Origin: Candidatus Bathyarchaeota archaeon
Lineage (GTDB): Archaea; Thermoproteota; Bathyarchaeia; TCS64
Reading direction: 5' to 3'
Length of the DNA: 64,000 nt
Assembly (NCBI GenBank): GCA_030739585.1
Contig: JASLYX010000002.1
Span: 124,001-188,000 of the forward strand
Below the pieces are notes generated by a model that was given only the letters and a program-made list of their open reading frames with translations, was not told where the DNA came from and searched no databases. The position numbers were made by a program, and so were the translations under genes. The number at the start of each line of letters is the position of its first letter. Positions within the stretch are counted from its first letter, which is position 1. Positions 59,774 through 63,980 of the stretch are shown in pieces.

Positions 59774-60606
59774 GGGGTATTTATGCCCTCCTTTATTATT
59801 CGATTTGAGTTTAATACACCTCTATTTGTGCTGAAGTTGATACAATGAGCGGATTGATATTTCTTGTGTTAATTCCAACTTGTTTTTTAAACAAAATAAT
59901 GAATATGATGAAAAAGGCTTTGTGGGGGGTCATTCCTTTAGATTTTCGTACTCGTTTAGGAATCACTTCCTACGAGTTTTCCTCTCCTTTTCGAATAGAA
60001 ATGACCTTTTCGCGCGCTACCTCTTTTTTTTATCGTGTTAAATGGTTTACTTCTAGGTCTACTAAGGTCCTCAAGGAAGAAGCCTCCTCTCATCGTCTTC
60101 TAGGCTGCTAATCCCCGGGGATGCCATCTCCACTGTGTGTCTCAATAGTCAAGAAAACAAACAACAGAACGTTGATCATACTAACTTTTAGGACAATAAA
60201 GTTCTAAACTTAGTAGTATTTCAACGCGTCCATTAGGTTCCCGTATATGAGGGACATAAGGGAGAATCTAGTGGTTCAGGTGCAGTTCCCCTGACCCTTA
60301 GCGATCCCGACTTCTTAGTGGGGAGGTCTCAGCTATTGTGAAGCTATAAAGGGTCTCCGCCATCTCATAACTAAGCCCCTGTTACTCGGTAAAGATGGGT
60401 CTGAGGCCGAAGGGGTCAGACCTGATAAAGTTCCCCTAAAGTACGTGTGGATCACCCTGCCGAGGGTGACTCAGGGATACCTCCTGCTTACAATTTGGTA
60501 CCGGAAATCAATTAATGGAACGGTTTTCCCTCTAAAATGTTCCAAAAATCAATCAAAGAAAAAACCTTAACCTGACTTTCCCCTAATAATCACGGTGTTA
60601 ATAGCT
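59774..60606. other. Long gap with a doubtful 88-codon frame and a structured region
   Basis: A plus-strand frame at 59845-60111 could encode 88 residues with a hydrophobic N-terminus (SGLIFLVLIPTCFLN) and a basic Ser/Arg-rich rest. It is T-rich, has no recognised family and no strong ribosome-binding site, so I do not call it a gene. 60240-60480 is GC-rich, contrasts with its AT-rich flanks and contains several hairpins (see separate entry). The bases just before 60607 are AT-rich and probably hold the promoter of the phosphorylase. Confidence 0.4.
60240..60480. ncRNA. Candidate structured RNA (family unknown)
   Basis: Within an otherwise AT-rich gap this block is GC-rich and has well-formed inverted repeats: GGTTCAGG...CCTGACC (about 60273-60296), GGTCTGA-N11-TCAGACC (60398-60422) and TCACCCT-GCCG-AGGGTGA (60452-60469). 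AGTTCCCCT occurs twice, near 60284 and 60429. It has no open frame. I compared it by eye with RNase P RNA, SRP RNA and TPP/SAM riboswitch consensus words and found no convincing match. The strand is undecided. Confidence 0.35.
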
Positions 60607-61401
60607 ATGTTAAAATATTCTGCAGAGATCGGCGTCATTGGGGGGACTGGTGTCTACGACCCTGATGTCATAGAGGACGCCCAGTCGATAGAGGTCTATA
60701 CCCCTTACGGCCCCCCAAGTGATCTCATAACCTTAGGCATCTATCAGGATAGGCGCGTTGCTTTCATTCCCCGCCACGGCAGAGATCACCAGATTCCCCC
60801 TCATGGGATCAACGCCAGAGCCAACATCTGGACTATGAAAGAGCTAGGGGTTGAAAGGATCGTCGCCTCGTCTGCCGTTGGTAGTTTGAAAGAGGATTAT
60901 GCCCCGGGGGACTTTGTGATCACGGATCAGTTCATTGATCGTACCAAGGCCCGCCCAGATACATTCTATGACAAAGGCATGGTTGCTCACGTCTCTAGCG
61001 CAGACCCAGTTTGCCCCCAGCTCCATGACCACTTCGTCGACCAGGCTAGGAGGCTTGGGTTCCCGGTTCACCCCACTGGGACTTATGTTTGTGTCAATGG
61101 ACCCCGGTTCTCCACTCGGGCAGAGTCCCGTCTTTTCAGGCAGTGGGGCGCCGAGATCATCGGTATGACTATGTATCCCGAGTGTATCCTAGCTCGGGAG
61201 GCAGAGATCTGCTACGTTTCCGTCGCGATGGTGACCGACTACGATGTGTGGGCTGAGAAGCCGGTTTCTACCCAGGAGGTCCTTGAGACTCTCCACGCTA
61301 ACTCTGCGAATTTTAAGGGACTGTTCATGGAGGCTCTGCCTGGGATTCCAGCTGAGCGGGAGTGCAGATGTGGTGAGGCGATGAAGTATGCGGTCCTATG
61401 A
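60607..61401 (+). CDS. mtnP: S-methyl-5'-thioadenosine phosphorylase
   Basis: About 264 residues. IGVIGGTGVYDPDVIEDAQS carries the phosphate-binding loop; FIPRHGRDHQIPPHGINARAN, AVGSLKEDYAPGDFVITDQF, YVCVNGPRFSTRAESRL and EIIGMTMYPECILAREAEI with the purine-site residues match MTAP. MVTDYDVW follows. The NGPRFSTRAE and MTMYPE motifs favour MTA over ordinary purine nucleosides. It cleaves the MTA left by aminopropyl transfer, giving adenine and methylthioribose-1-phosphate, which fits bpsA nearby. The ATG at 60607 is preferred to the GTG four codons upstream. Confidence 0.92.
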   Translation: MLKYSAEIGVIGGTGVYDPDVIEDAQSIEVYTPYGPPSDLITLGIYQDRRVAFIPRHGRDHQIPPHGINARANIWTMKELGVERIVASSAVGSLKEDYAPGDFVITDQFIDRTKARPDTFYDKGMVAHVSSADPVCPQLHDHFVDQARRLGFPVHPTGTYVCVNGPRFSTRAESRLFRQWGAEIIGMTMYPECILAREAEICYVSVAMVTDYDVWAEKPVSTQEVLETLHANSANFKGLFMEALPGIPAERECRCGEAMKYAVL

Positions 61402-61745: not shown

Positions 61746-62099
61746 CTATCCTCTGTCATCACCGATGGATCTTGTTATCTCTTTAATCTCAAAGGATCCA
61801 GGCATGAGTCTCTTCTTGATAAGTTCCCAGGCCGCAGATGGGGATTTCCCCTCCCCGCAGATGAAGATATCCACGGCAGCATAGCCGTGCTCAGGCCAGG
61901 TCTGAATGGAGATGTGGGTCTCAGCAAGGATAAGGAAGACACTAACCCCGACAGGATGGAACTTGTAGACAAGCTGATCCACAACAGTGGAGCCTGCCTT
62001 CACTGCGGCCTTCTCCAGTATATTAACAAGAAACTTGTCGTCATTGAGGTCGGCCTTGCAACCGTACAGGTCCACCAAGAGCTGTTTTATCCTGAGCAT
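61746..62099 (-). CDS. S-adenosylmethionine decarboxylase (SpeD) homologue with altered active site
   Basis: 117 residues, clearly of the class 1B AdoMetDC family: LLVDLYGCKADLND at the N-terminus, VYKFHPVGVSVFLILAE, then THISIQTWPEHGYAAVDIFI and CGEGKSPSAAWELIKKRL. Ungapped comparison with the recalled Thermotoga enzyme puts Thr61 where the pyruvoyl-forming Ser63 should be, Gln66 in place of processing His68, and Cys81 at the proton donor Cys83. The length is normal and the protein is otherwise well conserved, so it does not look like random decay. It lies 57 bp from bpsA on the same strand, which needs decarboxylated SAM. It may process through Thr, act without pyruvoyl, or be a regulatory partner of another SpeD. 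Confidence 0.85.
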   Translation of the reverse strand: MLRIKQLLVDLYGCKADLNDDKFLVNILEKAAVKAGSTVVDQLVYKFHPVGVSVFLILAETHISIQTWPEHGYAAVDIFICGEGKSPSAAWELIKKRLMPGSFEIKEITRSIGDDRG

Positions 62100-62155: not shown

Positions 62156-63316
62156 TCAATCGGCTCGCTGCTTCTCGGAGAGCCTGAATCCCTCTCTCCT
62201 TCTACATTTTGGGCAGCCCCCCGCCTTGAGTTCCTCAATAGTTGTGAAACCCGTCGATGAACCCACCACTATCGCTTTCCCACACCGGCACCTGTACACC
62301 CGGATCGTGGGCTTTAGTTCCCCCGTATATATACCTCCTTGGAATGGGCCTGTAATGACTGGTCTTGCCTCCCCAGTGACCACGAGCCGGAACATTGATG
62401 TGGTATTGGCCAGTATTTCAGCTCCTAAATAGATGTTAAACCGAGGGATGATCTCGTCGACGTAGAGTCCCATCCAGTTTAAGGTCCCGTGGGCTTTAAG
62501 CATCTCCAGAGGAGGCTTGTCAGGATAGGCCATATAGGCGATCGATGTCTTCCGCCACCTGAGCGCCTGGATGCCCCGGGAGATGAAGAGTTCTAACCCT
62601 GGGATGGTATAAGGAGGATCGGTTAGGAAAGTATCAAAGGCTCCCCTAAGCGACTCTGGTAGGGGCTCCCTCAGGTCGTGGAGTACACACTGGATGCTGA
62701 GTCCCTCCTCCTTGGAGACCCCCATGATGGTCTCGAGGAGTCTGCCGTCAATGTCTACAACAGTGATCCCCTTTGTCACCCTAAGAAGGCCCGCTGCCAC
62801 CGATACCAGATCATCGTCCCCTAGGAAGAGGACGTTCCTCCCTGCAAGGTTTCCCCCATCAAGCATGTAAAGAGCCCTCCGCAGGGCTGTTTCAGGAGTG
62901 GCGTGGGTCTGATCCAATTTGGGGTTGGCATTTGGCCGTCTGGATGATGCCTCCCGGATTTTTTCCAAGATCGGTTCGTACTCAGGAGCGATCTCCTGCG
63001 AGTCGTTCGTCTCCTTTGTTTTCGCTACCATGCCCAGTACCACCTCGACGAACTCTTTTCCCGTCACTGTGAGGATCGCCCCACCTTTTCTGGCGACTAG
63101 TCCCGCTTTCTCGAGTTCCCTGCGAATTGCTGCGGTGACGGGGGTAGGGAGCCTCGTGGCCCTTGCGATGTCCTTGGTACCCACCTTGCCTCTGTGATGG
63201 ATCTCCCTGAGAACTCGCCTTATGGCCTCCTCACCCTCTTTTAACCTCATCTTTTCTGCTAGTTTTCGGAGAAAGTCCTCAGGTGGTGCATAGCTGGAGG
63301 AGCCTATTTTCTGCAC
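62156..63316 (-). CDS. bpsA: N4-bis(aminopropyl)spermidine synthase (branched polyamine synthase)
   Basis: 386 residues. A winged-helix-like N-terminal domain (KVGTKDIARATRLPTPVTAA) precedes a Rossmann aminopropyltransferase domain with VLFLGDDDLVSVAAGLLRV (the GDDD substrate motif) and DTFLTDPPYTIPGLELFISR. The C-terminal part contains a zinc-ribbon-like set, YRCRCGKAIVV and GGCPKCRRREG. This layout is that of the archaeal/Thermus BpsA (DUF43) family that adds two aminopropyl groups to N4 of spermidine, making the branched polyamine known from thermophiles. GTG start. It is co-oriented with the SpeD homologue. Confidence 0.9.
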   Translation of the reverse strand: MQKIGSSSYAPPEDFLRKLAEKMRLKEGEEAIRRVLREIHHRGKVGTKDIARATRLPTPVTAAIRRELEKAGLVARKGGAILTVTGKEFVEVVLGMVAKTKETNDSQEIAPEYEPILEKIREASSRRPNANPKLDQTHATPETALRRALYMLDGGNLAGRNVLFLGDDDLVSVAAGLLRVTKGITVVDIDGRLLETIMGVSKEEGLSIQCVLHDLREPLPESLRGAFDTFLTDPPYTIPGLELFISRGIQALRWRKTSIAYMAYPDKPPLEMLKAHGTLNWMGLYVDEIIPRFNIYLGAEILANTTSMFRLVVTGEARPVITGPFQGGIYTGELKPTIRVYRCRCGKAIVVGSSTGFTTIEELKAGGCPKCRRREGFRLSEKQRAD

Positions 63317-63368: not shown

Positions 63369-63980
63369 TTATTTGTTTCTCCTCCTTATCTCATCGCGAA
63401 TCCTCTTTATCTCTCCCTGGTTTGCCTCAATTTTATGGTCTGATTTGAGTCGCTCTGCAATCTCCGAGTCAGTGACTCCGTTTTTATCTATTTTCATGAT
63501 GATATTGGATATGTCCTCGATGTAGTTCCAGGGAAAGATCACCCAGCACCAGCTGATCTTTTCTCCAAAGTAGTCTGGGGTGAATTGGGAGCCGGTAATA
63601 TGTTGGAGCGTAGCGGTCTTTACCCCCAGGGGATTCAGGGTGTTAACATAGCTCATAGCGGCGATCATGCTGAGCCCAGTATCTGTGATATCATCCACCA
63701 CCAGCACCTTGTAGCCGGAGAGGTCAATGTTAAAGGGGTACTTGATACGGGCTTTCCCATCAGGGGTCGCTGTGACCCCCCAGTGCTCCACCTTGAGGCT
63801 CACAAGGTCCTTGACGCCGAGATAATCACAGAGGACCCTGCTAAGGACCCAGCCCCCCCGGGCAAGCCCCACGATTATGTCCGGTTTGTAACCGGAGTCT
63901 ACAACCTTCCGGGCGGTCTTCTCTGCGAGAAGCTGGAATCTGTACCAATCCATAACTTGGCAATCGAATTTGCTTGACAC
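63369..63980 (-). CDS. Purine-type phosphoribosyltransferase
   Basis: A 203-residue type I PRTase. PDIIVGLARGGWVLSRVLCD is the pyrophosphate loop, LKVEHWGVTATPDGKARIKY the hood region and VLVVDDITDTGLSMIAAM the PRPP-binding motif. The C-terminal 50 residues (DSEIAERLKSDHKIEANQGE) are helical and resemble those of archaeal proteins annotated as hypoxanthine/xanthine-guanine PRTase-like. It would salvage a purine base, which suits the adenine-releasing mtnP nearby, but base specificity is open. A GTG at 63980 or ATG at 63953 may start it; about 50 bp separates it from bpsA. Confidence 0.85.
   Translation of the reverse strand: MSSKFDCQVMDWYRFQLLAEKTARKVVDSGYKPDIIVGLARGGWVLSRVLCDYLGVKDLVSLKVEHWGVTATPDGKARIKYPFNIDLSGYKVLVVDDITDTGLSMIAAMSYVNTLNPLGVKTATLQHITGSQFTPDYFGEKISWCWVIFPWNYIEDISNIIMKIDKNGVTDSEIAERLKSDHKIEANQGEIKRIRDEIRRRNK

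Follow-up and report, generated by a model that had tools for sequence, protein, structure and literature searches.

The pyruvoyl decarboxylases described so far always make their cofactor from an internal serine, via an ester (PMC3975893). What a member of this group can do when that serine is a threonine is the question raised by a short gene (61746..62099, minus strand) in the window, the whole 64,000-nucleotide stretch of Candidatus Bathyarchaeota archaeon DNA that was analysed. The gene encodes a 117-aa homologue of SpeD, the S-adenosylmethionine decarboxylase (AdoMetDC), which matches the Pfam model AdoMet_dc (PF02675) with 114.7 bits (cut-off 25) and the NCBIfam adenosylmethionine decarboxylase equivalog TIGR03330 with 116.7 bits (cut-off 75.65). 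Its AlphaFold model, made for the monomer only, has a pLDDT of 94.1 and the two-layer AdoMetDC fold, the best structural match being the Thermotoga maritima enzyme (PDB 1tlu, TM 0.89).

The frame contains LILAETHISIQTWPEHGYAAVDIFICGEG around the motif region. In the alignment with 1tlu, the pyruvoyl-forming Ser63 is replaced by Thr61 (codon ACC, 61917..61919, minus strand) and His68 by Gln66 (codon CAG, 61902..61904, minus strand), with Cys83 and Ser55 retained as Cys81 and Ser53 and Cys81 at +20 from Thr61. The open reading frame, the profiles and this alignment confirm the two substitutions, and the spacing of the cysteine, noticed in a sequence-only reading of the locus. By profiles, fold and the equivalents of Cys83 and Ser55, the protein belongs with the class 1B AdoMetDC family; it departs from the class in having no Ser at the Glu-Ser cleavage site, where all 23 members of its clade carry Thr, and no processing His68, a position where the window and two other species of its genus have Gln and the remaining 20 genomes His.

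The clade was delimited by a class-wide homologue search of 257 Bathyarchaeia genomes, which gave 23 proteins at 49–100% identity and then a gap down to 45% or less. Thr occupies the cofactor site in every genome above the gap, and the homologues below it, where read, have Ser. The carriers are spread over three families, f1 (genera g1 and g4), f11 (genus g89) and f23. All four Thr codons (ACA, ACC, ACG and ACT) occur among them, which indicates that Thr itself has been kept. A single, long-stemmed branch with 100/100 support separates the 22 near-complete Thr proteins from the rest of a 46-sequence tree. Scans for the Thr motif covered Thermoproteota genomes and IMG/VR viral contigs: among 398 Thermoproteota genomes the motif was found in seven, all within the Thr clade, and a control pattern allowing Ser or Thr hit 243; in the viral contigs the Thr pattern was not found, and the Ser pattern does match there. 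Nearly all sequences come from metagenome-assembled genomes. An assembly or sequencing error is ruled out, since both substitutions recur in two more species of the genus and Thr in all 23 genomes.

Conservation across the clade is complete or nearly so for Glu60, His62, Cys81, Ser/Thr53 and the TWP core; the Cys83 position holds Cys in 23/23, and that of Ser55 holds Ser or Thr. With the class 1B enzyme TM0655 of T. maritima (1tlu/1vr7), the clade shares the fold, the length, the Glu before the cofactor site, Cys83, Ser55 and the TWPE core. Aside from Thr in place of Ser63, and Gln in place of His68 in the window's sub-clade, it differs from TM0655, as from the Ser group, in having Val after Ser53 (Ser55), Ile/Val/Leu before Cys81 (Cys83), an invariant Trp91, and no N-terminal GxH motif, whose His has become Gln or Glu. 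These residue changes around the active site could make room for the added methyl group or go with a different substrate.

The two substitutions differ in age and spread. The sequence-only reading had left it to the relatives to tell whether Thr and Gln form a conserved pair, or whether the usual Ser and His stand at this locus elsewhere. Ser was found in none: each relative carrying this BpsA locus has Thr, which is old and invariant; His is present in 20 of the 23, and there is no fixed pair. Gln66 occurs only in the window's genome (G000), G001 and G002, three species of one genus, and the fourth genome of that genus, G003, has His. The Gln species form a sub-clade (support 95/92 in the 46-sequence tree), and on this phylogeny Gln is a young, local change and Thr an old one. 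The speD of the Gln sub-clade is clearly under purifying selection: between the three species, dN/dS is about 0.14, 0.15 and 0.07 for the Thr-type speD and about 0.13, 0.14 and 0.32 for BpsA, values well below 1, with dS near saturation in the two wider of these comparisons. This low dN/dS, together with Thr across 23 genomes, rules out a pseudogene, in line with the earlier view that the gene is not dead.

The gene neighbourhood points to polyamine synthesis. The gene lying 56 bp upstream of speD and co-directional with it (62156..63316, minus strand) encodes a BpsA-type aminopropyltransferase of 386 aa with GDDD and TDPPYT motifs and a C-terminal CxC...CxxC; it matches PF01861 with 179.5 bits, as expected from the co-oriented bpsA reported before, and its best solved-structure match is 5xnc, an N(4)-bis(aminopropyl)spermidine synthase. 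Upstream of bpsA lies a phosphoribosyltransferase-domain gene (63369..63980, minus strand, PF00156), and the order phosphoribosyltransferase–BpsA–SpeD is found in four more genomes of the window's family. A convergent gene (60595..61401, plus strand) encodes S-methyl-5′-thioadenosine phosphorylase (MTAP; TIGR01694, 316.8 bits, cut-off 274.85), which also lies near the Thr-type speD in G001, G002 and G003. The link to an aminopropyltransferase, proposed for the window, holds across the clade: in 21/23 genomes, the window included, bpsA directly precedes speD in the same orientation, and BpsA is present in 22/23. In G210 speD is cut by the contig end and BpsA stands at the end of another contig; in G003 (76% complete) the Thr gene is present and BpsA was not found. 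The gaps between bpsA and speD are mostly short, with a 4-bp overlap possible in several f23 genomes, and at Ser-type loci the gene order is reversed, SpeD preceding BpsA.

BpsA uses decarboxylated AdoMet (dcAdoMet), and its GDDD motif positions this donor (PMC12979288). The Thr protein is the sole AdoMet_dc homologue in 19 of the 23 genomes, of which ten reach 90% completeness or more and seven consist of a single contig; the AdoMet_dc model also detects the E. coli enzyme, so that a class 1A enzyme would have shown up. The presence of BpsA with a single SpeD homologue in an organism implies that this homologue makes dcAdoMet. We infer, with a probability of roughly 0.55, that the Thr protein is a working dcAdoMet-forming decarboxylase that feeds BpsA and cleaves itself between Glu60 and Thr61 to give a 2-oxobutanoyl cofactor. 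Such a Thr-derived cofactor is the reading favoured by the comparative evidence. Thr61 would attack the carbonyl of Glu60 in an N-to-O acyl shift, the resulting ester would undergo β-elimination to dehydrobutyrine, and hydrolysis of the latter would leave an N-terminal 2-oxobutanoyl group acting in place of pyruvoyl, with Cys81 and Ser53 in their usual roles. SpeD would then supply dcAdoMet to the adjacent BpsA, and MTAP would recycle the methylthioadenosine released by aminopropyl transfer. Engineered Ser-to-Thr mutants have reportedly been made; literature searches on Thr-derived cofactors and on AdoMetDC S68T returned nothing usable.

In other proteins Thr can act as the nucleophile of autocleavage, and the same N-to-O shift followed by hydrolysis could, as in Ntn hydrolases, leave an N-terminal Thr serving a different chemistry. 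This outcome is very improbable, given the AdoMetDC fold, the inability of an amine N-terminus to sustain decarboxylation, and the setting in polyamine synthesis.

The Gln sub-clade requires an additional assumption. His68 of T. maritima presumably corresponds to His243 of human AdoMetDC. The latter helps to resolve the ester (PMC3975893), and the Gln sub-clade should therefore be slower or use another base: another residue or a water molecule would assist, or processing would be slow. The loss of His could mean weakened processing, and the activity of the window's own Gln form is less certain than that of the rest of the clade.

The window's genome (1.69 Mb, 95% complete) has two AdoMet_dc homologues, the Thr type and a distant paralogue (KSH type, motif DKSHIAIHTF), and the two types also coexist in G001, G002 and G016. 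A second speD, for which the sequence-only reading had suggested looking, thus exists in the window's genome as a distant paralogue and is absent from 19/23 genomes with the Thr form. The prozyme-like partner role also proposed there is ruled out for the clade by this absence, which also speaks against a dead gene. The trypanosome AdoMetDC prozyme is likewise a SpeD homologue without a processing residue, but it requires an active paralogue. For the window's sub-clade alone, the loss of His might signify decay of the gene or reliance on the KSH-type SpeD, for instance in a hetero-oligomer, and the paralogue is indeed found in all three Gln genomes. We consider this improbable: His is retained in G016 alongside the KSH paralogue, the Gln gene and its BpsA are under selection of similar magnitude, and many genomes with the distant paralogue have no BpsA.

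The KSH-type gene of the window's genome (L002:1489-1827, minus strand, contig C6) belongs to a type that is common in family f1, mostly without BpsA. All 14 f1 genomes with only the distant paralogue (KSH type where read) are without BpsA. The KSH-type carriers are genomes in which the pyruvoyl arginine decarboxylase PvlArgDC was not found, and the KSH type is itself a candidate arginine decarboxylase. A methanofuran role, considered for the KSH type on account of its MfnB/MfnE neighbours in the window's genome, was rejected: G000 and G002 are the only genomes with MfnB nearby, and most KSH-type genomes lack MfnB; the tyrosine decarboxylase MfnA was checked as well.

The loss of GxH and the altered residues beside Ser53 and Cys81 mean that the substrate of the Thr protein may have changed. 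Like the SpeD-derived arginine and ornithine decarboxylases, the protein might decarboxylate a different compound (arginine, ornithine or a polyamine precursor), the cofactor still being derived from Thr. Neofunctionalisation of this kind is widespread (PMC10407285), the surroundings of the active site differ from those of the Ser group, and PvlArgDC was not found in the six f1 carriers. Among the f11 and f23 carriers, 16/17 have a separate PvlArgDC which fills the role, so that an arginine decarboxylase role is disfavoured outside f1 and possible within it. Moreover, with another substrate the f11 and f23 carriers would be left without an AdoMetDC to serve BpsA, an enzyme that requires dcAdoMet and to which the gene is linked; a change of substrate is thus unlikely. 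The decarboxylases SpeDA and SpeDC are likewise divergent SpeD proteins in which the sequence surrounding a conserved core has changed, but they are expected to keep Ser63, His68 and Cys83 (PMC10407285), while the Thr clade has Thr for Ser63, is usually the sole SpeD and is tied to BpsA. Marks of the SpeDA/SpeDC group are diagnostic ODC residues (Gln, Thr, Phe, Tyr) or a lost gamma proline. In the Thr clade, the proline of the TWP core is present in 23/23 members.

The adjacent aminopropyltransferase is distinctive too. The clade BpsA, identified by PF01861 and by a GDDD motif kept in every protein examined, has PF01861, GDDD and DPP in common with 5xnc, but differs in a C-terminal CxC...CxxC, found in 20/20 examined clade BpsA and in the fragmentary G007 locus, and in a GNAT acetyltransferase domain fused to the C-terminus in family f23. 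The CxC...CxxC is absent from all five examined BpsA that accompany Ser-type SpeD. The BpsA C-terminus is thus remodelled, and the joint SpeD–BpsA reaction may differ as a result. This zinc-ribbon-like element sits where T. kodakarensis BpsA reportedly has an acidic aminopropyl-carrier tail. The f23 fusion (L074:6334-7986, L077:6328-7995, L078, L081, L084 and others) is possibly a polyamine synthase-acetyltransferase.

An unusual BpsA, with its CxC...CxxC element or GNAT fusion, would also suit an uncleaved SpeD without catalytic function that would act as a subunit or regulator of BpsA and bind AdoMet or dcAdoMet, with dcAdoMet coming from elsewhere or BpsA using another donor; the replacement of Ser in all members, and of His in three, accords with such a role. 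It is nevertheless unlikely, because Glu60, His62, Cys81, Ser/Thr53 and the TWP core, needless for mere binding, are kept, and 19/23 genomes have no other AdoMet_dc homologue.

Several SpeD proteins met in the course of the comparison deserve separate mention. At L012 and L062 (G034), a 438-aa open frame joins a Ser-type SpeD in frame with a spermidine-synthase-like domain. A SpeD homologue of an uncultured Selenomonadaceae (L036:4001-4324), DEGHAILEIYGG, has Gly at the cofactor site and lacks the processing His. At L006 and L089 (G022), the N-terminal AEDGIRDVERSRGLGDVYKRQ resembles a translated sequencing adapter at a contig end, and this SpeD may be contamination.

Judged against the pyruvoyl decarboxylases described and the survey of SpeD homologues, whose text mentions neither threonine nor Bathyarchaeota (PMC10407285), the evidence suggests that Thr at the cofactor site is new. 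Profile-based naming (TIGR03330) conceals the difference between Thr and Ser. The wider picture, to which we give slightly less than even odds, is that of a natural decarboxylase lineage which draws 2-oxobutanoyl from an internal Thr, is the sole AdoMetDC of most of its hosts and has co-evolved with a remodelled branched-polyamine synthase, one sub-lineage working without the processing His. If this is true, a second residue besides Ser can supply a carbonyl cofactor in nature, genome annotation should accept a wider range of active sites, and the clade would put the need for the neighbouring His to a natural test.
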